From contig NZ_RYFF01000020.1 in the NCBI RefSeq assembly GCF_004138165.1, positions 1 to 33,607 of the forward strand: a stretch of 33,607 bases of DNA, in the 5' to 3' direction. A program made the translations under genes and the position numbers. Source of the DNA: Candidatus Chloroploca sp. Khr17. Its GTDB lineage: Bacteria; Chloroflexota; Chloroflexia; Chloroflexales; Chloroflexaceae. The notes beneath the pieces are model-generated. The model saw only the letters and a program-made list of their open reading frames with translations. It made no database searches and had not been told where the DNA came from. Below are positions 21,998 through 32,523 of the stretch, piece by piece (within the stretch, counting starts at the first letter, position 1; every line of letters begins with the position of its first letter).

Positions 21998-23935
21998 CTA
22001 CCCTACTGTCCAGAGATACAGACGCCCGTCGTGGCATCCTGTGGCCAGGAGCTTGCCATCGGGGCTATAGGCGAGCGAGGCGATGCCCGCACGATGTTCT
22101 AGCGCAACAGGGATGCGAATGCCATCGCTGAGGCGCCAGAAAAAGACCTTTTTATCTTCGCTTCCTGTGACCAGCAACTGGCTATTAGGACTAAACGCGA
22201 TGGCGTGCACAGGCCCACGATGTTCTTGAAAAAACTCGATTGGCTTCTGGTCGCTCATACGCCAGACCTGGACACTCGTATTGCTACTGGCGGCGAGGTA
22301 GGCGCTATCGGGACTAAAAGCAACACGAAGAATAAAGGTAGGAAAGCCGCTCAACGAAGGCAACGGCGACGTATCGCTCACCTGCCAGAGATAGACCGCC
22401 CCATCGTAGCCTCCGGCCGCAATCAGGGTGCCATCGGGGCTAAACGCGACACTATGGACAAACGGGCAGACAAGGGTCTTGATGATCCGCACATACTCGT
22501 GATCTACCTCACAGAGGGCGAGCGAACCACCCCAGCCACCAATGACCAGTTTTGTCCCATCGGGGCTAAACGCAATGCTCTCGACCGGGCACCCGGGCAA
22601 GCGCAACTCACGGATGAAGGCACCATCATTGGCCTGCCAGAGGCGCACCGTCTCATCATCGCTGCCGGTCGCCAGCAGATTGCCATAGGGCGCAAAGGCG
22701 ACACTCCGCACACTGCTGACATGGCCTTTGAGGGTAGCGAGAGGGCTATAGCTATTGACCTGCCAGAGCCCGGCGGTATGATCGTCATAACCAGCCGCAA
22801 GCAGATCACCCGCCGGATTGAAGGCCACTGAACGGATGGCGCTACCGGTGGTCAGCATATGCAAGAGGGTTGCTTGAGGATCGAGACTTGATCCGGTGAT
22901 CGCCTGACTCCCGTTTGTCCCAGTCTGCGAAGCAAGCGGATTGCCTGCCGTTACTTCGCCTGGCACCAGGCCGGCGATTGGTTCGGGCGCGGCCTCAACC
23001 GGGAGTTCTTGCTCGGGGGGGGCCGGTTCAACATTCTCCTGGCGTGCGTGCGGACGTTCTCGTGAGCCGCCCTGGTTGCGCGCACGGGCCAATGCGGTGC
23101 GCATCTCGCGGGCCGAGGCCGGGCGTTCATCGATCATCACGGCCAGGGCGTGTTCGAGCACCCGGGCAACCGGTTCTGCCACATGGGGGGCAAGCGTGCG
23201 GATTGGCTTGAGTGGATCGGCTTGCCCACTGATCATGCGCGTCATACGCGTCATCGCATCAACGGGAAGGGTTCCGGTCAACAATTGATACATAGTAGCC
23301 GCGAGCGAATAGAGATCGCTGCGTGGGTCAGCCTCGCCATCGCGCATCTGCTCGATTGGTGCATAGGGTGGCGTGAAGCCATAGATCTTGCGGGCATTGG
23401 CCGATGCATCGGCTACTTCTTCAAGATCGATTGCCACCGTCACCCCGCCGCGGGCAAGACCAAAGTCAAGCAGAATAATATCGTAACTCTGGGTGAGTTT
23501 CAGGTTTTTGGGTTTAATATCACGGTGAAAGACCGGGACGGGGCGGGTATGGAGATAATTCAGCGCATCAAGCAATTGATCGGTCCACCGCAGGATCATG
23601 GGCATCGCTTGCGGCGACGCAAAACGGCGTCCGAGGCGATTGATCTGATTACCCAGATCTTCGCCGTGAATAAACTCCATCACCAGAAACTGGCCCTGGC
23701 CCTCGTTGAAATGGTCAATGACCCGTGGGAGGGCCTGATGGCGGAGGCGGGCAAGCACCTGCGCTTCATGTTCAAACGCCCGTCGGTAGACGGCATCCTG
23801 AAAAAAAGTCTCTTTGAGCGCTACATCGGTACGCAGACGAAGATCACGGGCGTGATAGACGGCACCCATCCCGCCTTTGCCGATCTGCTCAACAACTTTA
23901 TAACGATCCTGGAGAATGGCCCCCGGCTCAAGCAT
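21998..23935 (-). CDS. Ser/Thr protein kinase with C-terminal WD40 propeller
   Basis: Hanks-type kinase of 645 residues. The glycine loop GKGGMGAVY is at 19-27, catalytic Lys41 in VALKE, the catalytic loop HRDIKPKN at 137-144 with Asp139, and DFG at 157-159. The activation segment ends at PPYAPIEQ. A Pro/Glu/Ala-rich linker (about 290-350) leads to seven WD40 repeats (about 355-645), each with a SVAFSPDG-like block and a closing LW pair, enough for a complete seven-bladed propeller. No transmembrane helix lies between the two parts, so unlike PknB-type receptors it should be soluble. The propeller probably recruits substrates or partners. It is the first gene of the - strand run with the histidine kinase. 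Kinase-WD40 fusions are common in large-genome Chloroflexota, cyanobacteria and Planctomycetes. Confidence 0.95.
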   Translation of the reverse strand: MLEPGAILQDRYKVVEQIGKGGMGAVYHARDLRLRTDVALKETFFQDAVYRRAFEHEAQVLARLRHQALPRVIDHFNEGQGQFLVMEFIHGEDLGNQINRLGRRFASPQAMPMILRWTDQLLDALNYLHTRPVPVFHRDIKPKNLKLTQSYDIILLDFGLARGGVTVAIDLEEVADASANARKIYGFTPPYAPIEQMRDGEADPRSDLYSLAATMYQLLTGTLPVDAMTRMTRMISGQADPLKPIRTLAPHVAEPVARVLEHALAVMIDERPASAREMRTALARARNQGGSRERPHARQENVEPAPPEQELPVEAAPEPIAGLVPGEVTAGNPLASQTGTNGSQAITGSSLDPQATLLHMLTTGSAIRSVAFNPAGDLLAAGYDDHTAGLWQVNSYSPLATLKGHVSSVRSVAFAPYGNLLATGSDDETVRLWQANDGAFIRELRLPGCPVESIAFSPDGTKLVIGGWGGSLALCEVDHEYVRIIKTLVCPFVHSVAFSPDGTLIAAGGYDGAVYLWQVSDTSPLPSLSGFPTFILRVAFSPDSAYLAASSNTSVQVWRMSDQKPIEFFQEHRGPVHAIAFSPNSQLLVTGSEDKKVFFWRLSDGIRIPVALEHRAGIASLAYSPDGKLLATGCHDGRLYLWTVG

Positions 23936-23972
23936 TGCGGTGCTTTCCCTACTCTTCTTTTACCGTGCCCTT

Positions 23973-23978
23973 AGTATA
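23973..23978 (-). promoter_or_regulatory. Candidate -10 for the WD40 kinase gene
   Basis: Read on the - strand, TATACT lies about 38 bases upstream of the kinase ATG in the divergent intergenic region. The -35 is weak (TTCATT at 16 bases), so support is modest. Confidence 0.35.
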
Positions 23979-24049
23979 CCGCGAAACTGCTACCAATGAA
24001 TTACCTGGTGGGTGCAATGGCAGGGCTGATGCATATGCGGACGAAGTGC

Positions 24050-24077
24050 TTGGGGTTCCATGGCAATATGGTATACT
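24050..24077 (+). promoter_or_regulatory. Candidate promoter for the acyl reductase-like gene
   Basis: TTGGGG (24050-24055) and TATACT (24072-24077) are 16 bases apart, and the -10 has the TG extension (TGGTATACT). Transcription would start near 24084, 45 bases before the ATG. Confidence 0.55.
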
Positions 24078-24128
24078 TCGTGCATAGCAACAGGGTGACC
24101 CTCTAAATAATGTCGGAGGCATTGTGCG

Positions 24129-26174
24129 ATGAAGCGCATTGTAAGCATCAGTCTGGGTTCCTCAGCCCGTGATTATCGTGTAACAACGTCCATTCTTGGC
24201 CAGACGATTGAACTTGAGCGACTTGGGGTAGACGGCAATACGGCGCGTGCTGCCGAGTTGATCCGAGCCTTCGATGGGCGGGTTGACGCGATCGGGCTTG
24301 GTGGTTTGACGCCGGTTTTTCGGGTTGGCCGGGCGCGTTATCCACATCACGAGGCGATCCAGATTGCGGCTGAGGCGCGTCGCACGCCGGTTGTTGATGG
24401 TGGTGTCGTCAAGGCGACGCTCGAGCGTTGGGCAATTGCGCAGGCAGTGCGCAAGATTCCGTCGCTGTTGCGCTATCGGCGCGTGTTGATGACCAGTGGC
24501 ATTGAACGCTATCAGCTTGCGGCGGCGATCAGTCAGTATGAGCCTGAGTTGCGTTTTGCCGATCCGTTGATCCATAGTGGGCTCCCCTTTCTCCCCGTGC
24601 CACGCTCGCTCGAACAGCTTGAACTCTACGCGGCCACTACGCTTCCGGTGACGGCGCTTTTGCCGTACCGCATCTTGCACCCGGTCGCGCTTGGCCAGGA
24701 GGGGCACGACCGTCGGGCAACAGGGCTTTTTGCATGGGCCCAGGTGATTGCCGGTGATTTTGCGTTTATTCGCCGCTTTGCGCCCGTCGATCTGACGGGC
24801 AAGACGATTATTACCGATGATCCTTCGCCGGCGGAGATCGAGGAGTTGCGCGAGCGGGGGGTGATGACGCTGGTGACAATGACCCCGCCCATCAGTACCG
24901 AGCGACCTTTCCTCGCCGCCGATGCGATCGAGGCGATCATGGTGGCTCTGCAAGAGACCGATGGGCAACCAGGCGAGGCCGATGCGCTCGATTTCATTGC
25001 TGCCGCCGGGTGGACGCCGACGGTGCAAGATTTGAATCCGCGCCCGCTGCCGAAATTTGCGTTCGTGATCCACCCGTTGCGCACCAACCTGATTGCCAAT
25101 GACCCCCGGTTTAGCTGGACACGTTTTTTGCCCGAGCGCCTTGTGGAGCGGATCGCCGCCCATATGCCACCGCTCTACCTTTCGCGCATCAGGGGCATTC
25201 GCTCGATTGCGACCGGCCAGGAGGCGGAAGGTATTCTCTTGAGCCTGGGCACGACGCCCCGCGAGATGATGCGCCGTCCCCCGAGTTTTACCTATCGGCG
25301 GCTTATCCGTGCTGCCCGGATGTCCGAGCGGATGGGCGCACAACTCATGGGCCTCGGGGCCTTTACCTCGGTGGTTGGCGATGCGGGCATTACGGTGGCG
25401 CAGAAAGCCGATATTGGCATTACCTCGGGCAATTCGTTGACCGTTGCCGCGACGCTCGAAGCGGCCAAGCAGGCGGTTTATTTGATGAAGGGCGGTCGGC
25501 CCGACAAGGTGCGTGCCGTTGTCATTGGTGCGACCGGCTCGATTGGCGCAGTCTGTGCACGGTTGCTGGCCCAGGCGGTGCGCGATGTTGTCTTGATTGC
25601 GCCGCGCCCCGAGCGCTTGCTGTTGCTCAAGCAGCAGATCGAGCAAGAGACGCCAGGGGCACGGGTGATTGCGGCAACGCACCCTGATGCGTATGTTGGC
25701 GACGCTGACCTGATCATTACGACGACCAGTGCGCTGACGGGCAAGGTGATCAATGTTGACAAGCTCAAACCAGGGGCCGTGATCTGCGATGTTGCACGCC
25801 CGCCTGATGTCAAAGAAGCCGACGCTGCCCGCCGCCCCGACGTGCTGATCGTCGAGAGTGGCGAAATTGTCCTGCCAGGCGAGCCAGACTTTGGCTTTGA
25901 TATCGATATGCCTCCCGGCACGGCATACGCATGTCTTTCCGAGACGGCATTGCTGGCGATGGATGGCAAATTCGAGGACTACACCCTTGGGCGGACGATT
26001 GAGATCGACCGGGTCAAAGAGATGTACCGGCTCTGGCAGAAGCATGGCTTAAAACTGGCTGGCCTGCGTTCCTTTGGGGTCTATGTCACCGACGAAATGA
26101 TCGCCGAGAAACGACGGCTCGCCGAGGAACTGCGCCGCGAGCGGGGGTTACCACAGGAGATTGGCTCGGCATAA
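24129..26174 (+). CDS. Long-chain acyl-ACP reductase-like fusion protein
   Basis: Protein of 681 residues in two parts. The C-terminal half (about 380-660) resembles cyanobacterial acyl-[acyl-carrier-protein] reductase (AAR): LGAFTSVVGDAG, an NAD(P)-binding VVIGATGSIGAVCARLL near 463-480, and YACLSETALLAMDG, whose Cys602 aligns with the cysteine that holds the acyl thioester in AAR. AAR reduces fatty acyl-ACP to fatty aldehyde. The N-terminal 350 residues (VDAIGLGGLTPVFRVG) are unfamiliar to me and about double the usual AAR length. No aldehyde-deformylating oxygenase lies nearby, so alkane synthesis is not implied; an aldehyde or alcohol for wax esters, known in Chloroflexus relatives, is a possible use. 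The ATG has GGAGG 9 bases upstream. Automatic annotation may call it shikimate dehydrogenase-like from the Rossmann fold alone. Confidence 0.7.
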   Translation: MKRIVSISLGSSARDYRVTTSILGQTIELERLGVDGNTARAAELIRAFDGRVDAIGLGGLTPVFRVGRARYPHHEAIQIAAEARRTPVVDGGVVKATLERWAIAQAVRKIPSLLRYRRVLMTSGIERYQLAAAISQYEPELRFADPLIHSGLPFLPVPRSLEQLELYAATTLPVTALLPYRILHPVALGQEGHDRRATGLFAWAQVIAGDFAFIRRFAPVDLTGKTIITDDPSPAEIEELRERGVMTLVTMTPPISTERPFLAADAIEAIMVALQETDGQPGEADALDFIAAAGWTPTVQDLNPRPLPKFAFVIHPLRTNLIANDPRFSWTRFLPERLVERIAAHMPPLYLSRIRGIRSIATGQEAEGILLSLGTTPREMMRRPPSFTYRRLIRAARMSERMGAQLMGLGAFTSVVGDAGITVAQKADIGITSGNSLTVAATLEAAKQAVYLMKGGRPDKVRAVVIGATGSIGAVCARLLAQAVRDVVLIAPRPERLLLLKQQIEQETPGARVIAATHPDAYVGDADLIITTTSALTGKVINVDKLKPGAVICDVARPPDVKEADAARRPDVLIVESGEIVLPGEPDFGFDIDMPPGTAYACLSETALLAMDGKFEDYTLGRTIEIDRVKEMYRLWQKHGLKLAGLRSFGVYVTDEMIAEKRRLAEELRRERGLPQEIGSA

Positions 26175-26175
26175 G

Positions 26176-26230
26176 GTTTGGTCACGTCCCCAAAAACCAG
26201 CAAAGCTGGTTTTTGGGGACGTGACCAGAC
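26176..26230. terminator. 26-bp hairpin with AAA loop, likely bidirectional terminator
   Basis: Arms 26176-26201 and 26205-26230 pair along 26 positions with a single T.G wobble and close on AAA. The inner part, CCAGC-AAA-GCTGG followed by TTTTT, is a small terminator hairpin on either strand; the outer arms then pair on beyond the T-tract. It begins 2 bases after the stop of the preceding gene. Confidence 0.8.
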
Positions 26231-26251
26231 TGTGTTTGTGGGCTGCCATCT

Positions 26252-27031
26252 ATGAACACGCTAGAACACATCTGTATTCAACCTGAAGTTCAGCGCTATG
26301 CTGCGCCGCTGCTGCTGTTGCACGGGGCGTGGCATGGGGCGTGGTGCTGGCACGAGGCGATGCGTGACCTGGCGGCGCGGGGTTTTGTCGTGCATGCTTT
26401 TAGCACACGGGGGCATGGGGCGAGTGATCGCCCGCGGCGCCACTGGCTCACGACGGCGTCTGATTATGGGCGCGATCTGATCAGTGTGGTGCGGGCGCTG
26501 CCGAAACCGCCGATCCTCGTTGGGCATAGTTCGGGTGGGTATCTGGCGCAACTGTATATGACGGGACGCTTTGGGCCAGTGCCGCCCCTGGCGGGCGTTG
26601 TGTTGCTCGGCAGTTCGCCGGTTGACAGCGTGCGCTATTTCCTTACCCGTACAACGCCCCCCGAAGCAGCGATCGATCCGCGGGCGATGCTGCGCCGCGA
26701 ACCCGAGACGATGCGCAAGCTGCTCTTCCGCCGCGACATTGCCCCCGAAGCGTTGCATGGCTATGTTGCGCAGATGGTTGCCGAGCCGCCCCTGGTGACG
26801 ATGCAGAGCATGGTGTTGCGCCCGCGACCGGCGCGCAACGCCACGCCTGTCGTCGTCATTGCCGCCGGGCGCGATATGGTCTTTGGCCTTGAAGCGCAAC
26901 AAGTCACCGCAGCGACGTATGGGGCCGAACTGATTGTGGTGCCTGAGGCTGCACACGACCTGATGCTCGACCCAGACTGGCCGCAGGCGGCGGCGGCGAT
27001 CGAGCGGTTTGCGCAGATGCTAACGCTCTGA
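26252..27031 (+). CDS. Alpha/beta hydrolase
   Basis: Single-domain alpha/beta hydrolase of 259 residues. The oxyanion region is LLLHGAWHGAWCW (21-33), the nucleophile Ser93 is in GHSSGG, and the late histidine is in EAAHDLMLD near residue 238. No signal peptide is visible, so it should be cytosolic. The substrate cannot be assigned; esterases, lipases and haloperoxidase-like enzymes share these motifs. The start follows the terminator hairpin, with no strong ribosome binding site. It sits directly after the acyl reductase-like gene but is separated from it by that hairpin, so a shared pathway in lipid metabolism is possible but unproven. Confidence 0.85.
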   Translation: MNTLEHICIQPEVQRYAAPLLLLHGAWHGAWCWHEAMRDLAARGFVVHAFSTRGHGASDRPRRHWLTTASDYGRDLISVVRALPKPPILVGHSSGGYLAQLYMTGRFGPVPPLAGVVLLGSSPVDSVRYFLTRTTPPEAAIDPRAMLRREPETMRKLLFRRDIAPEALHGYVAQMVAEPPLVTMQSMVLRPRPARNATPVVVIAAGRDMVFGLEAQQVTAATYGAELIVVPEAAHDLMLDPDWPQAAAAIERFAQMLTL

Positions 27032-27040
27032 ACACTTGCT

Positions 27041-27089
27041 TCTTCCCGCACAAAAAAACTAGCGTAGCTGGTTTTTTTGTGCGGGAAGA
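27041..27089. terminator. 23-bp hairpin with GTA loop, likely bidirectional terminator
   Basis: Arms 27041-27063 and 27067-27089 pair fully with one T.G wobble around GTA. The inner hairpin AACTAGC-GTA-GCTGGTT runs into a seven-T tract on both strands. It starts 9 bases after the hydrolase stop and ends one base before the TetR operator. Confidence 0.8.
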
Positions 27090-27090
27090 G

Positions 27091-27110
27091 TTGATTGACT
27101 GGTCAATCAA
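27091..27110. promoter_or_regulatory. TetR operator 1
   Basis: The palindrome TTGATTGACTGGTCAATCAA has 9-base arms around TG. It covers the -35 element of the tetR promoter (27095-27100). An identical copy lies 34 bases downstream. The length and symmetry fit TetR-family operators. Confidence 0.85.
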
Positions 27111-27123
27111 CTTGTGCTACAAT
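27095..27123 (+). promoter_or_regulatory. tetR promoter (TTGACT-17-TACAAT)
   Basis: The -35 TTGACT (27095-27100) and -10 TACAAT (27118-27123) are separated by the optimal 17 bases. Operator 1 overlaps the -35 and operator 2 covers the start point, so the repressor would block its own transcription. Confidence 0.85.
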
Positions 27124-27124
27124 C

Positions 27125-27144
27125 TTGATTGACTGGTCAATCAA
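27125..27144. promoter_or_regulatory. TetR operator 2
   Basis: This is an identical 20-base copy of operator 1, extended by further symmetry to AATCTT/AAGATT (27121-27148), giving 13-base arms. It lies over the predicted transcription start and ends just before the ribosome binding site of the TetR gene. Confidence 0.85.
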
Positions 27145-27161
27145 GATTGAGGAGAAGCGTT

Positions 27162-27776
27162 ATGCCCCCGCGTGATCAGGATGAATTTGAGCAGCGGCGC
27201 AGGCAAATCCTTGATGGTGCGCTCGAAGTCTTTGCCGCAAAGGGTTTTGAGAAGGCAACGAATAAAGATATTGCTACCGCAGCGGGGATCAACTCGCCAG
27301 GTTTAATTTATCACTATTTTGCCGATAAAGCCGATCTGTTTCGCCATGTGGTTCAGCATTTTGTGCCGATGATCAGCTTGCTCGATCATCCCGATGATCT
27401 GATGCAACGCCCAGCGCGTGAGGTTTTGACGCTCTTTGCCGCGACGGTGTTGAAAGCGACGGAGAATCGTCAACTCTTTGCGGCCTACAAACTTGTGGTG
27501 AGCGAGGCTTTTCGCCGCCCTGCTATTGCCGAGCTCGTGAATAAGATTGGGCCACAACGGGGCGTCCGCTTTCTCTGGCTCTACCTCGCTCAAGAGATTG
27601 CGTCTGGGCGGATGCGCCAGATTGATCCTGGCATTGCGGTGCGGTTGTTTATTGGCCCTTTGCTGGCTTTTGTGATCATGCGCGAGCTCTTTCCCCAACC
27701 CGATGCGGCAACAATCAGTGCCGAGACGATGGTGGAGCAGACGGTCGAGGCTTTTTTGCGGACGATGGCGGTCTAG
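27162..27776 (+). CDS. TetR/AcrR family transcriptional repressor
   Basis: Dimeric one-component regulator of 204 residues. The N-terminal helix-turn-helix is at about 12-58, with TNKDIATAAGINSPGLIYHY the recognition part. The C-terminal ligand-binding domain is divergent, as is normal. I chose the ATG at 27162, which has GAGGAG upstream; the open frame reaches further back, but only through the operator. Two identical operators cover its own promoter, so it is autoregulated. The exporter genes follow in the same direction after 107 bases that contain an inverted repeat; control of the exporter by read-through from the same promoter is likely. The inducer is unknown and probably an export substrate. 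Confidence 0.95.
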   Translation: MPPRDQDEFEQRRRQILDGALEVFAAKGFEKATNKDIATAAGINSPGLIYHYFADKADLFRHVVQHFVPMISLLDHPDDLMQRPAREVLTLFAATVLKATENRQLFAAYKLVVSEAFRRPAIAELVNKIGPQRGVRFLWLYLAQEIASGRMRQIDPGIAVRLFIGPLLAFVIMRELFPQPDAATISAETMVEQTVEAFLRTMAV

Positions 27777-27805
27777 GGGCAACACCTTTCAGATACGACG
27801 AGAAG

Positions 27806-27863
27806 AGACCTCACAGGTCTTGATGATGGCGTCCCAATGCCGACGAGCAGACCTGTGAGGTCT
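27806..27863. repeat. 15-bp inverted repeat between tetR and the permease gene
   Basis: AGACCTCACAGGTCT (27806-27820) and its exact inverse AGACCTGTGAGGTCT (27849-27863) flank 28 bases. Each arm is itself nearly self-complementary, so several folds compete. Elements built on AGACCTGTGAGGTCT occur in many copies in Chloroflexota and other genomes, as far as I know. It lies 29 bases after the TetR stop and ends 20 bases before the permease start. Confidence 0.75.
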
Positions 27864-27883
27864 TCTTTGAAATAGAGGTTTGT

Positions 27884-30271
27884 ATGGCTCCACGCTGGTC
27901 AAAAGTAATCCGGGATCTCTTTGCCCATCGCACGCGTACGCTGTTGGTGGTGCTTTCGATTGCGATTGGCGTGGCGGCCTTCGGGGCAATTCTGACGGGC
28001 CTGACGATTATTCGCGCTGAGTTGCAGTCAAGTTATCTTGCGGTCAATCCGGCGAGTGCGCTGATCACCACGCAGCCTTTTGATGAGGTGTTGCTCGAGA
28101 GCATTCGGCGGGTGCCGGGTGTTGCCGATGCGCAGGGGCAGCGTGCGGTGGCGGCGCGGGCGCAGGTTGGCCCTGACGAATGGGTCGATCTGCAATTGTT
28201 TGTGGTGCCCGATGATGGGGTGATGACGATCAATCTTGTGCGCCCCGAGACGGGACCGTGGCCGCCGCCTGATCGCACTGTCTTGATCGAGCGGGCTTCG
28301 TTGGATATGACGCGTGCGTCGGTCGGCGATGTGTTGGCTCTGCAACTGGCTGATGGGCCGACACGATCAATGCCTCTGGTGGGGCTTACCCATGATTTGA
28401 GTTTGCCTCCGGCCGCCATTGCGGGTCAGGCGTTTGGCTATGTGACTGCCGACACGTTGATCTGGCTCGGTGGCCCTGCCGATGATAATCAGGTGCTGAT
28501 GACGACGAGCACGGGGCGCGATGATGCCGAGCATATTCAGCGCGTTGCCAGCGAGGTCGAACAGTTGATTGAGCGGAGTGGCCGTGAGGTGCTGGTGATT
28601 GATGTGCCAACGCCGTTGCAACATCCTGTTGAACTGGTGCTCGGTACGATTGTTGCGATTCTGACGACCTTGGGGTTGCTGGCGTTGTTGATCAGCGGCT
28701 TTTTGATTATTAATACGATCACGGCAATTTTGACCCAACAAACACGCCAGATCGGGATTATGAAGGCCATTGGGGCACGTACCAGCCAGATCATGGGGCT
28801 CTATTTTGTGCTCGCGGCGGGTTTTGGTCTGCTTGCGTTGCTGCTGGCTGTCCCGCTTGGCATGTTCGGCGGGTATGGCGTGGCTTTGTTTGTTGCTTCG
28901 CAACTCAATGTCACGCTGGAAGGGATACGCTGGCCCCTGGAAATTATGGCTTTGCAGGGTGTCGCGGCAGTGCTGGTACCGATACTTTCGGCGGCAGTGC
29001 CGATTCGGTCTACCGCACGGATGACGGTGCGCGAGGCGCTGAGTGGTGATACGACACCGCCGCCAGCCCGGATGAGCCTCTTGAGTCGGTTGTTGGGGGC
29101 GGTCGCCTTCATCACCCGCCCGACGATCCTCGCGCTGCGCAATACGTTTCGGCGGCGCGGGCGGCTTGTGCGTACCCTCATTGCGCTGTCGCTCGGCGGG
29201 GCCGTCTTTGTGAGCGTGATGACGCTGCGCGTCTCGCTCTTTACGACGCTCGACGACAGCATCGCGGCGCAGCAGTATGACCTGGAAGTCCAGCTAGCGC
29301 GTCCTTACCGTGGCGAACGGATCATGCAGGAAGTGGCATCGCTGCCCGAGGTAACGCATCTCGAAGCGCTGGTGCGGGCGCAGGCGTTTCCGGTGCAGCC
29401 CGATGGCACAACCGCCGAGATGGTGAGCCTGCGGGCGTTGCCTGCCGAAACGAGTCTGCTTACCCCGCGCATGGCGGCTGGGCACTGGCTTGATCCGGTC
29501 GAAGAGCGGAGTATTGTGCTCAGTACGAACTATCGAACCAAAGATCCGACCGTACAGGTCGGCGATACCATCACGTTGCGGATCAATAATCGTGATACCA
29601 CCTGGCAGATTACCGGCTTTGTCGAAGAATTTTTGCCGCCCACAACCCCGGCGCTGGGCTATGTCAATCTTGCGTCCTACACGCGGGCCTATGGCGGGAC
29701 GGGGCGGGTTGATGCCCTGCGGATCGCGACGACCGGCCACGACGCAGCCGCGCACGCCGCAGCCACCACGGCGGTCGAGCAGCGTTTGAACGAGCGTGGC
29801 TACGAGGTACGCCTGATTCGCTCGCGTACCGAAGATCGCGACATTCTCAGCGAGCGGTTCAATGTACTGACCGGCGTGCTGTCGCTGATGGCAGCGATTA
29901 TTGGTACGGTAGGTGGCCTGGGCCTGGCTGGCACGATGAGCATCAACGTGCTCGAGCGTACCCGCGAGCTTGGCATTATGCGAGCCGTCGGTGCTGCTGA
30001 TCGTGCCGTGCAGCAGATGGTCTTTGTCGAAGGTATCACCATCGGCCTGCTGGCCTGGCTCATTGGCACGCTGCTCTCGTTCCCGATGAGCTATGCCATG
30101 AGCTATCAACTCGGCATGAGTCTGCTCAATTTGCCGCTTACCTGGACGTATGCCCCGCTTGCGGTTGTCGCGTGGCTGTTCATTGTCCTGTTGATCGCAA
30201 GCGTTGCCAGCTATCTTCCCGCCCGCAATGCCACGCGCCTAACGGTCCGCGAGGTACTGGCGTATGAATGA
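27884..30271 (+). CDS. MacB/FtsX-type ABC transporter permease
   Basis: Membrane component of 795 residues with two FtsX-like halves. A first transmembrane helix (about 17-40) leads to an extracellular MacB_PCD domain, then three helices (about 245-375), a linker, another helix (about 430-450), a second extracellular domain and three final helices (about 665-790). The conserved end of each half is visible (PIRSTARMTVREALSGD, PARNATRLTVREVLAYE). Such permeases work as mechanotransmitters for lipoproteins, peptides or drugs rather than as classic importers. The ATG has GAGG 5 bases upstream. The TGA stop forms the foot of the hairpin at 30269-30313. The ATPase and adaptor genes follow. Confidence 0.93.
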   Translation: MAPRWSKVIRDLFAHRTRTLLVVLSIAIGVAAFGAILTGLTIIRAELQSSYLAVNPASALITTQPFDEVLLESIRRVPGVADAQGQRAVAARAQVGPDEWVDLQLFVVPDDGVMTINLVRPETGPWPPPDRTVLIERASLDMTRASVGDVLALQLADGPTRSMPLVGLTHDLSLPPAAIAGQAFGYVTADTLIWLGGPADDNQVLMTTSTGRDDAEHIQRVASEVEQLIERSGREVLVIDVPTPLQHPVELVLGTIVAILTTLGLLALLISGFLIINTITAILTQQTRQIGIMKAIGARTSQIMGLYFVLAAGFGLLALLLAVPLGMFGGYGVALFVASQLNVTLEGIRWPLEIMALQGVAAVLVPILSAAVPIRSTARMTVREALSGDTTPPPARMSLLSRLLGAVAFITRPTILALRNTFRRRGRLVRTLIALSLGGAVFVSVMTLRVSLFTTLDDSIAAQQYDLEVQLARPYRGERIMQEVASLPEVTHLEALVRAQAFPVQPDGTTAEMVSLRALPAETSLLTPRMAAGHWLDPVEERSIVLSTNYRTKDPTVQVGDTITLRINNRDTTWQITGFVEEFLPPTTPALGYVNLASYTRAYGGTGRVDALRIATTGHDAAAHAAATTAVEQRLNERGYEVRLIRSRTEDRDILSERFNVLTGVLSLMAAIIGTVGGLGLAGTMSINVLERTRELGIMRAVGAADRAVQQMVFVEGITIGLLAWLIGTLLSFPMSYAMSYQLGMSLLNLPLTWTYAPLAVVAWLFIVLLIASVASYLPARNATRLTVREVLAYE

Positions 30272-30313
30272 GTGCTGGAAAAAGCTAGCGAAGCTAGCTT
30301 TTTCCAGCACTCA
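30269..30313. terminator. Perfect 21-bp hairpin with GAA loop inside the exporter operon
   Basis: Arms 30269-30289 and 30293-30313 are perfectly complementary and close on GAA in the tip GCGAAGC, a sequence known to form an unusually stable DNA mini-hairpin. The inner part ends in a five-T tract on both strands. The left arm begins with the permease stop codon itself. Placed between permease and ATPase genes, it would attenuate or process the operon transcript. Confidence 0.75.
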
Positions 30314-30333
30314 CAAGAAGGTAATAAGAAGCA

Positions 30334-31011
30334 GTGATCCAGCTAACCAGGGTGATCAAAGAATATCCCACTGCGGCAGGCCCCTATCGGGCGCTCAAGG
30401 GAATTGACATAACTATTGAGCCGGGCGAGTTTGTGGCGGTGGTGGGCAAATCGGGGAGTGGCAAGAGCACGTTGATCAACATGATCACTGGCATTGACCG
30501 TTCGACCAGTGGCACCGTTTGTGTTGCAGGCACCGATCTGGGGCGTTTGAGTGAAGGGCAACTGGCGATCTGGCGGGGGCGCACGGTCGGCATTATCTTT
30601 CAGTTCTTTCAACTCTTGCCGACGCTGACGGTCGCCGAGAATATTATGCTGCCGATGGATTTTGGCAACATCGGGCGGCCCCGTGAGCGACGGCAACGGG
30701 CGATGACGTTGCTTGAGCAGATGGAGATCAGTGAGCACGCCGATAAGCTGCCAGGTGCGCTCTCGGGCGGACAGCAGCAACGGGTGGCGATTGCGCGTTC
30801 GCTTGCCAACGATCCCCCTTTGCTCGTCGCCGACGAGCCAACGGGCAACCTCGACTCGCGGACAGCGGACGCGATCTTCCATCTCTTCGAGCACCTCGTC
30901 GAGATGGGCAAAACAATTGTGATGGTGACGCACGATACCGATCTGGCGCAGCGGGCCGGACGGTCAATCACGGTGACTGATGGCTTGATTGTTGCGCCTG
31001 ATGGATTATAG
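30334..31011 (+). CDS. ABC transporter ATP-binding protein, LolD/MacB type
   Basis: Nucleotide-binding subunit of 225 residues that drives the upstream permease. Walker A is GKSGSGKST (about 38-46), the Q-loop [11 protein letters not shown] follows, the signature is [15 protein letters not shown] near 143, Walker [13 protein letters not shown] near 165, and the switch histidine is in MVTHD. The start is GTG at 30334, directly before the family's [10 protein letters not shown] opening. The hairpin at 30269-30313 lies just upstream. The adaptor gene follows after 12 bases. Confidence 0.96.
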
Positions 31012-31023
31012 AGGAAGACGAAG

Positions 31024-32523
31024 ATGCGTAAGCTTGTGATTGGGTTGATCGTGATCGTGGTTCTGCTTGGTGGTGGCATCGTCGTGGCGCAAACGGGTTG
31101 GTTGAACCCTGCTCCTTCCACGACTTCAACGACAACTCCGGTCGCTGATCAGTCCACCGCGCCACTCGCCGTGATCGCTGATGCACGGGTTGTTCCGGTG
31201 GCCGAGGCGCACCTTGCGTTTGAACGCAGTGGCACGGTTGCCACCGTCCTGGTGGCCGAAGGCGATCTGGTCACGGAAGGGCAGGCGCTGGCTCGCCTCG
31301 ATACCCGCGAATTGGAGTTACGGATTGCGCGTGCGCGGATCAACCTCGAACGGGCGCAGGCGCATTACAACCAGGTCGCGTCTGGCGCGGCCCCCGAGGC
31401 GATCGCTGCGGCCGAGGCGAGCATTGCGCAGGCGGCGGCGCAGCGTTCACAGGTCGTTAGTTCGGTCTCGCGCCAGGATCTGGCGGCAGCGCAGGCTCAA
31501 CTCGCCGAGGCACGAGCGGCGCTGGCGGCGTTGCTCGATGGCCCGCAAACGAGCGAGCTTGACCAGGCACAGGCAGCGGTTGATCAGGCGCGCACGGCAC
31601 TTGATCAGCAACAGACCGCGCTCTCGGCAGCCAGAACCAATGCCGAACTGGCGCTGGAGCAGACGGCGAATGCGTTACGCAATGCTCAGGATAGTTACAG
31701 CCGGATCTACTGGGAAAATATTGAACTTGCCGATCGCCTGGATGACGAAGATCTGCCGCAAGCGCGCATTGATCAAGAGGCGGCGGCGTTGCGGGCGGTC
31801 GAGAATGCCGAGCACGCCTTGGCGCAAGCCCAGGTCGCTGTTGAGCAGGCCCAGCAGAACGAGCGTGACGGCCTGGCGAATGCGGAAGCCCGGCTCCGCG
31901 AAGCCGAAGCGCGTCAGGCGCTGTTGGTGGCGGCCCCCACTAATGACCGCATCGCGGCGGCGCGCACCCGCATTGCGCAGGCCGAAGCGAATCTTGCCCG
32001 TCTCCAGGGCGAGCAGCGCACCAGCCAGATTGCCGTTGCTGCGGCAGGCATTGACCTTGCCGAGGCCAACCGTGATCAGGTGAGTGCCGCGCCCCGCGAG
32101 GTCGATCTTGTTGCCGCCCAGGTAGAAATCAATGCCGCCCAGGTTGATTTGGATCAAGCAGAGCTTGACCTCGAACGCGCCACGCTCGTTGCCCCGATGG
32201 ATGGCAGTGTTGCGCAACTCAATCTGACCATTGGCGAAGTGGCTGGCCCTGGCATCCCTGCGCTGATCCTGGCCGATCTTCAGGCCTGGCAGATCGAAAC
32301 CGACGACCTCAGCGAGCTTGATGTGGTGCGTCTACGCGAAGGTAACGCCGTGACGCTCACCTTTGATGCCCTGCCCGATCTAGAACTGCCTGGTCACATC
32401 ATCCAGATCAAGCCAATCGGCAGCAACCGCCAGGGTGACATTGTCTACACCGTTGTGATCGAACCCGACCGGTTTGAACCGCGTCTGCGGTGGAACATGA
32501 CGGCGGTGATGACTGCTACGTAA
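31024..32523 (+). CDS. HlyD/MacA-like membrane fusion (adaptor) protein
   Basis: Adaptor of 499 residues, longer than the usual 350-420. It has an N-terminal membrane anchor (about 4-24) and a first lipoyl half (VLVAEGDLVTEGQALARLDT, about 75-94). A very long Ala/Gln/Glu-rich heptad region runs from about 95 to 375 and should form a coiled-coil hairpin. The second lipoyl half (ATLVAPMDGSVAQLNLTIGE) and a beta-barrel domain follow. It would work outside the membrane with the permease and ATPase, as MacA does with MacB. No outer-membrane channel gene is present; Chloroflexota generally lack a typical outer membrane. GAGGAAG lies upstream of the ATG. A strong terminator follows the stop. Confidence 0.92.
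   Translation: MRKLVIGLIVIVVLLGGGIVVAQTGWLNPAPSTTSTTTPVADQSTAPLAVIADARVVPVAEAHLAFERSGTVATVLVAEGDLVTEGQALARLDTRELELRIARARINLERAQAHYNQVASGAAPEAIAAAEASIAQAAAQRSQVVSSVSRQDLAAAQAQLAEARAALAALLDGPQTSELDQAQAAVDQARTALDQQQTALSAARTNAELALEQTANALRNAQDSYSRIYWENIELADRLDDEDLPQARIDQEAAALRAVENAEHALAQAQVAVEQAQQNERDGLANAEARLREAEARQALLVAAPTNDRIAAARTRIAQAEANLARLQGEQRTSQIAVAAAGIDLAEANRDQVSAAPREVDLVAAQVEINAAQVDLDQAELDLERATLVAPMDGSVAQLNLTIGEVAGPGIPALILADLQAWQIETDDLSELDVVRLREGNAVTLTFDALPDLELPGHIIQIKPIGSNRQGDIVYTVVIEPDRFEPRLRWNMTAVMTAT

Follow-up and report, generated by a model that had tools for sequence, protein, structure and literature searches.

A probable tandem of two acyl-ACP reductase-like modules in a protein of Candidatus Chloroploca sp. 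Khr17

In a 33,607-nucleotide stretch of DNA from Candidatus Chloroploca sp. Khr17 (the window), one gene encodes a protein whose C-terminal half was noticed to share several blocks with cyanobacterial acyl-ACP reductase (AAR) and whose N-terminal part was described as unfamiliar, which raises the question of what such a fusion is and what it could do in a filamentous anoxygenic phototroph. We lean towards reading it as a two-module acyl-thioester reductase, in which the C-terminal module (C module) would carry out the reduction and the N-terminal module (N module) would be its non-reducing companion.

The gene and its occurrence

24115..24119, + strand: GGAGG, likely ribosome-binding site, 9 nt ahead of the ATG; read from the sequence
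24129..26174, + strand: whole gene with ATG start, 681 aa, probable tandem AAR-fold protein; open reading frame and genome search

The open reading frame at 24129-26174 is a real gene and not a chance reading frame. Matches to the full-length 681-aa protein (E <= 0.001) were detected in 53 of 61 genomes, counting the window's own genome (G000), and three of these matches (G037, G043 and G058) are short and weak, covering only the nucleotide-binding region; therefore, 50 are good. Most other matches are full length, besides two genomes that have the C module alone (G016 and G026) and one with a divergent C module (G025). By family, good matches were found in 35/37 genomes of f1, to which the window's genome belongs, in 9/9 of f3 (one of them in pieces) and in 6/9 of f4. 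They were absent from all six f2 genomes, three f4 genomes and two f1 genomes, and this patchiness among close genomes counts against the two-module reading.

The window's genome carries a second copy, 51% identical (G000:C1:86592-88586), which lies about 7 kb from two reaction-centre genes (stretch G000:C1:78091-88586). Split or broken copies were observed at L043 5265-7339 (G017) and G059:C8:26903-28928, and may reflect frameshift, assembly error or decay. A search of the open literature for AAR together with Chloroflexi or Chloroflexus returned no title on this protein among the matches listed.

The C-terminal reductase module

25050..26114, + strand: C-terminal module, residues 308-662, AAR/thioester-reductase domain; family and PDB sequence/profile searches
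25527..25547, + strand: GATGSIG, residues 467-473, NAD(P)-binding loop, equivalent to AAR 162-168; alignment, AAR numbering from the available part of PMC7089970
25932..25934, + strand: Cys602, equivalent to AAR Cys294; alignment, Cys in 23/23 Chloroflexota rows, AAR and PigE

The 681-aa protein matched the NCBIfam model of cyanobacterial AAR (TIGR04058) with E 5e-14 and 52.3 bits, missing the cut-off of 449.7, and the PigE model (NF053554), over its reductase part only, with E 3e-53 and 181 bits, missing the cut-off of 850. Among PDB entries, the single sequence found PigE (E 1.5e-28) and AAR (E 6e-10), and a profile of the C module reached 2e-47 for PigE (4ppm) and 3e-30 for AAR (6jzq), spanning positions 37-334 or more of 353. 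The same profile matched the carmabin TAD at 1.5e-12 over positions 82-275, and glutamyl-tRNA reductase at 2e-4 over a part of the domain only, far below AAR and PigE. On sequence grounds, residues ~308-662 belong to the AAR superfamily, and given the distance between the TIGR04058 score and its cut-off they are placed in the superfamily and not in the cyanobacterial AAR family itself.

The general Rossmann families of Pfam stayed below threshold (Shikimate_DH, 23.4 against 24.3 bits); besides being too general, this label was rejected because AAR and PigE score far better. The SDR-type fatty acyl reductase family PF07993 has ten matches in the genome and none at this gene.

The C module was aligned in 25 rows (11 of A2, 12 further Chloroflexota hits, AAR and PigE). 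The Cys602 column is Cys and the Glu605 column is Glu in every row. According to the available text of PMC7089970, AAR forms an acyl-enzyme on Cys294 that is then reduced with NADPH, Arg189, Arg193 and Arg314 contact the NADPH phosphate, and an Ala variant of Tyr247 loses stearoyl-CoA binding. In the C module, AAR Arg193 corresponds to Arg496 and Arg314 to Arg622, Arg189 is replaced by Pro492 (with Arg493 adjoining) and Tyr247 by Arg557. The C module thus likely shares the reaction mechanism of AAR, and may differ from it in substrate and cofactor preference.

In a full-length model, the C half, for which no alignment was used, is poor except for a Rossmann core at about residues 430-583. This core came closest to dipicolinate synthase and glutamyl-tRNA reductase (Z 14.6-15.0), not to AAR, and many dehydrogenases matched as well; where AAR chains could be superposed on this model, it was on the N half.

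Several known systems can be set beside this protein. Cyanobacterial AAR (6JZQ, TIGR04058) shares with the C module a significant sequence match, the catalytic Cys, the GATGxIG loop and two of three phosphate arginines, and it is also the closest solved fold to our model of the N module (VIA-align). The window protein differs in scoring below the family cut-off, in lacking Arg189 and Tyr247 and in being fused to what is probably a second AAR-fold module; ADO, moreover, is absent in 19/19 genomes tested here. PigE, the best sequence match, whose domain acts in prodigiosin synthesis, and TamH are described as thioester reductases in the accessible parts of PMC8341465 and PMC9594044; they resemble our protein in the conserved Cys and in having the reductase fused to another domain, but the window protein has no aminotransferase and its partner is a predicted AAR-fold module. 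The carmabin TAD (PDB 9E4S-9E56) matches the C module by sequence and the N module by fold, but belongs to a larger synthase (the entry is named amino acid adenylation domain protein). Glutamyl-tRNA reductase likewise works through a Cys thioester and NADPH, as outlined in the portion of PMC8341465 available to us, its profile match being weak and partial.

The significant matches in TIGR04058, PigE and the PDB thus bear out the AAR-like nature assigned to the C-terminal half by the initial annotation, and the alignment agrees with its placing of the acyl-binding Cys602 and of the dinucleotide loop. Its statement that AAR-like enzymes outside cyanobacteria are poorly described finds no support in that form, as relatives beyond cyanobacterial AAR, namely PigE, TamH and the carmabin TAD, are described at least in part.

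In another Chloroflexota genome (G190), an 849-aa protein (L114 5018-7564) has a class III aminotransferase ahead of an AAR-type domain, a fusion like that of PigE and TamH; the order aminotransferase-then-reductase is reported for TamH in the accessible part of PMC9594044. Weaker C-module matches occur within reading frames of about 4100 residues at G053:C1:2487792-2488514 and G038:C29:21650-22303, perhaps as reductase domains of megasynthases.

The N-terminal module and alternative readings of the protein

24129..25031, + strand: N-terminal module, residues 1-301, predicted AAR fold; AlphaFold2 model, stand-alone ~300-aa homologues in Anaerolineae
24492..24518, + strand: TSGIERYQL, residues 122-130, apparently replacing the dinucleotide loop; equivalence to GATGSIG inferred from chain order
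24921..24923, + strand: Asp265, putative equivalent of the catalytic Cys; alignment, 3 residues ahead of an invariant Glu

The fusion does have an extra N-terminal part, as initially noted, and because AAR homology starts near residue 308 and not 350, this part is about 300 and not 350 residues long. By sequence it is as unfamiliar as had been stated, with no Pfam match even at E 10 and no PDB sequence match (best E 0.78), but the model described below, which is closest to AAR, indicates that its fold is probably not an unrelated one.

In a sample of 301 genomes of the phylum, apparently the identical set for both counts, the N module was found in 47 (E <= 0.001) and the C module in 52 (E <= 1e-15); both modules occur in 45 genomes, the N module only in two and the C module only in seven, a co-occurrence inflated by relatedness. 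Some families have the two modules in one fused protein and others have them as separate proteins, and in several families the N module is a stand-alone protein of about 300 residues. Among at least 445 confirmed relatives on contigs, 80 loci with the N module were all of Chloroflexota type by title (Anaerolineae, Anaerolineales, Thermoflexales, Promineifilum, Ardenticatenia and similar), and among open reading frames of at least 200 aa in these loci (about 6 kb or less per side) no C module was present. A physical link of the stand-alone N module to AAR was likewise rejected, the C module being absent in 18/18 stand-alone loci (from 20 fetched, two being fused; about 6 kb or less per side). 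The N module was not found in plasmids, and neither module was confirmed in viral contigs. N-module-type proteins in other phyla presumably go by the name 'quinate 5-dehydrogenase'.

In a tree of 30 C modules, the stand-alone C modules of G016 and G026 group with the fused proteins (100/100), the branches to AAR and PigE being long and unsure; these two cases imply that a C module need not be accompanied by an N module. The tree of N modules is weak, and its Chloroflexus row is only 12% filled.

An AlphaFold2 model of the N module, calculated with 55 stand-alone rows from contigs, reached a pLDDT of 90.1 and a pTM of 0.89. In VIA-align its top matches were four AAR entries (Z 14.8-15.1), the best being 6jzq_C (Z 15.1, 244 aligned residues, rmsd 4.5, spanning AAR residues 1-344), followed by four carmabin TAD entries (Z 13.6-14.0); the best unrelated chain, a sugar-binding protein, reached Z 10.7. 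Residues 3-304 of the full-length model matched AAR at Z 15.3, a result that is not independent since that model was built from largely identical rows. By Foldseek E-value AAR came ninth, after sugar-binding proteins and malic enzyme, and by TM-score over the query AAR and TAD reached 0.47-0.50 and the other top-20 rows 0.32-0.39, with phosphinothricin dehydrogenase, below the top 20, similar to AAR at 0.47. Because the model of the N module matches AAR best, the protein as modelled probably consists of two AAR-fold modules in tandem, and the first of them lacks Cys and GxGxxG. The column proposed to correspond to the catalytic Cys is Asn in 62/73 N modules, Ala in 6/73, Asp in 5/73 and Cys in none, and stand-alone rows have mostly V/A-D-R-W/Y-G at the position of TSGIERYQL.

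A direct comparison of the N and C profiles is no proof of homology: hhalign gave probabilities of 0.4 and 0.2, and of 1.9 with deeper profiles (73 and 25 rows), none of them significant. The best local match pairs EAIMVAL with the C-module stretch directly after Cys602, that is, in the expected register. It scored 22.5, against 16.8 for the reversed N profile and a mean of 15.9 for 200 shuffles, one of which reached 24.1; 11 of 500 column shuffles reached the real score, two of these in register.

The lack of a significant match between the two profiles suits the idea that the N-terminal domain is a common two-lobed alpha/beta arrangement, AAR-like by convergence and no second AAR-type module, as do the identity of 10%, the Foldseek E-values favouring other folds and the presence of sugar-binding proteins, malic enzyme and glutamate dehydrogenases at Z 9-10.7. 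However, AAR and carmabin TAD fill the first eight places, with a lead in Z of about 3 (TAD) to 4 (AAR) over the others, the AAR match spans nearly the whole AAR chain and the best sequence match lies in the expected register, so we regard convergence as improbable and homology of the N module with AAR and the C module as likely. If homologous, the N module might still be an enzyme with other chemistry, using the Asn or Asp at the Cys position and the D-R-x-G motif, and the fusion would then be bifunctional, acting for example on the aldehyde. The stand-alone proteins speak for this, since 38 polar columns are near-invariant in them (95% or more of 55 rows, e.g., TNTTT, GRSFGTN and DRxG), but among fused forms only 16/38 persist in 90% or more of the 32 main proteins and 8/38 in the seven-row paralogue set, and Asn at position 265 is found in 0/32 and 0/7, respectively. 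This erosion, with the loss of the Asn, makes it more likely that the N module of the fusion has a role other than an enzymatic one, which is left with little probability. Mean conservation between the window protein and the 31 other main fused proteins is 72% in the N module and 85% in the C module.

A further alternative concerns the substrate, which could be a thioester of another kind than those of common long-chain fatty acids, as for PigE, with an intermediate of special metabolism as the product. The PigE domain outscores AAR as a match to the C module, which lacks the equivalent of AAR Tyr247, and an aminotransferase is carried by PigE and annotated (as class III) in 13 of the 17 plasmid records in which the C module was detected, all of which would agree with such a role. 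Yet neither an aminotransferase nor a carrier protein is present among the six neighbouring proteins searched (21998-32520), and the gene occurs in most sampled genomes of f1, f3 and f4, which a general lipid role suits better; we therefore hold the special-metabolite alternative to be rather unlikely, if less so than the two preceding ones.

Genomic setting and possible role in lipid metabolism

21998..23935, - strand: fusion of a protein kinase domain and WD40 repeats, transcribed divergently to the reductase gene
26175..26231, no strand assigned: inverted repeat with 27-bp stem and 3-nt loop, in the gap separating the reductase gene from the hydrolase gene; fold z -10
26252..27031, + strand: alpha/beta hydrolase (Abhydrolase_6), candidate partner; family search, next gene in 18/24 f1 loci

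The hydrolase lies next to the reductase in 18 of 30 orthologous loci (the best-scoring of the 53 matching genomes; 1.5 kb flank), all of them in f1, and in two of the 18 the hydrolase is a fragment, cut by the contig end in L015 and a 128-aa ORF in L023. A separate ORF-based count gave 13/20 loci and missed some found in the larger count; ABC-transporter genes follow the hydrolase in only 6/20 loci. No defined lipid operon was found and the hydrolase is absent in 6/6 f4 loci, and both facts count against the two-module reading.

The 16-base core of the inverted repeat occurs nowhere else in the genome but in its two arms; its loop is AAA in the window and TTT in the sister genome G002, and the inverted-repeat motifs tried in G001 were not found. 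Around stand-alone AAR genes of Anaerolineae a recurring set was observed (DUF4388, small GTPase, alpha/beta hydrolase, V4R, hexapeptide, AAR, response regulator and kinase; L106, L107, L116, L117 and L118, not every gene in every locus), its families having been searched for L106 and L107 only and the response regulator and kinase judged by eye. After the stand-alone N module, a MobA-like nucleotidyltransferase followed by mostly a PAP2-like gene was seen in 6/13 loci (L086 by family search; L087, L089, L094, L097 and L098 by eye).

Wax esters are reported in Chloroflexus and Roseiflexus in the available part of PMC4400912. WS/DGAT (PF03007) was detected in none of six f1 genomes, G000 included, and in two of four f4 genomes (G042 and G048, two copies each); these two were taken as positives, since none of 14 controls matched PF03007. 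An AAR-ADO alkane pathway was rejected for the 19 genomes tested, as ADO was found in none of them, with the S. elongatus control above the cut-off. LuxC-type reductases matched in 4/19 genomes (G053, G038, G065 and, weakly, G039), so other routes exist there, and were absent in G000, G029, G033, G042 and G048, which makes the AAR-type protein the best acyl-reductase candidate in these five; SDR-type reductases may be an alternative in the same genomes. The FAR C-terminal domain PF03015 had no match in any of the 19 genomes, the controls being equally without one. A role in forming fatty aldehydes or alcohols, perhaps for wax esters, is plausible.

The window's genome is that of a phototroph by two reaction-centre matches, as the initial annotation supposed, but a phototroph-only role was discarded, since the fused gene occurs in G053, G189 and G227 and a reaction-centre gene was not found in any of them.

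If the protein is the two-module acyl-thioester reductase that we favour, an acyl group would be moved from ACP or CoA to Cys602 of the C module, and the thioester would be reduced by NAD(P)H bound at GATGSIG with release of an aldehyde, as in cyanobacterial AAR. The N module, with the same overall predicted fold and neither the Cys nor the canonical dinucleotide loop, would most likely be a non-reducing companion, either pairing with the C module as an intramolecular pseudo-dimer and so shaping the acyl tunnel, or offering a docking site to the carrier or to the enzyme that comes next. The product, an aldehyde that is probably long-chain, would then be handed on to alcohol and ester lipids, and the adjoining hydrolase is a candidate downstream enzyme.

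A wider proposal joins these points and is possible, if doubtful. The N domain and its stand-alone relatives would form a so far unrecognised branch within the AAR superfamily, with a near-invariant Asn in place of the acyl-binding Cys and D-R-[WY]-G in place of the nucleotide loop. This branch would be paired with a separate AAR on one pathway in Anaerolineae, and in Chloroflexales it would be fused, with the N module decayed to a non-reducing companion. The fusion would be the missing acyl reductase for the fatty alcohols and wax esters of filamentous anoxygenic phototrophs, and in genomes that lack WS/DGAT the neighbouring hydrolase might form the esters in an unconventional way.

The fatty alcohols and wax esters of Chloroflexus-type phototrophs are used as biomarkers in hot-spring work, and the protein described here is a specific candidate for the acyl reductase from which they derive. 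For a family of unassigned proteins of about 300 residues, the model suggests an AAR fold without the Cys, and with it a testable pairing of a reductase with a non-reducing copy. Genomes in which the ADO partner was not found may also supply AAR-type reductases for enzyme engineering.
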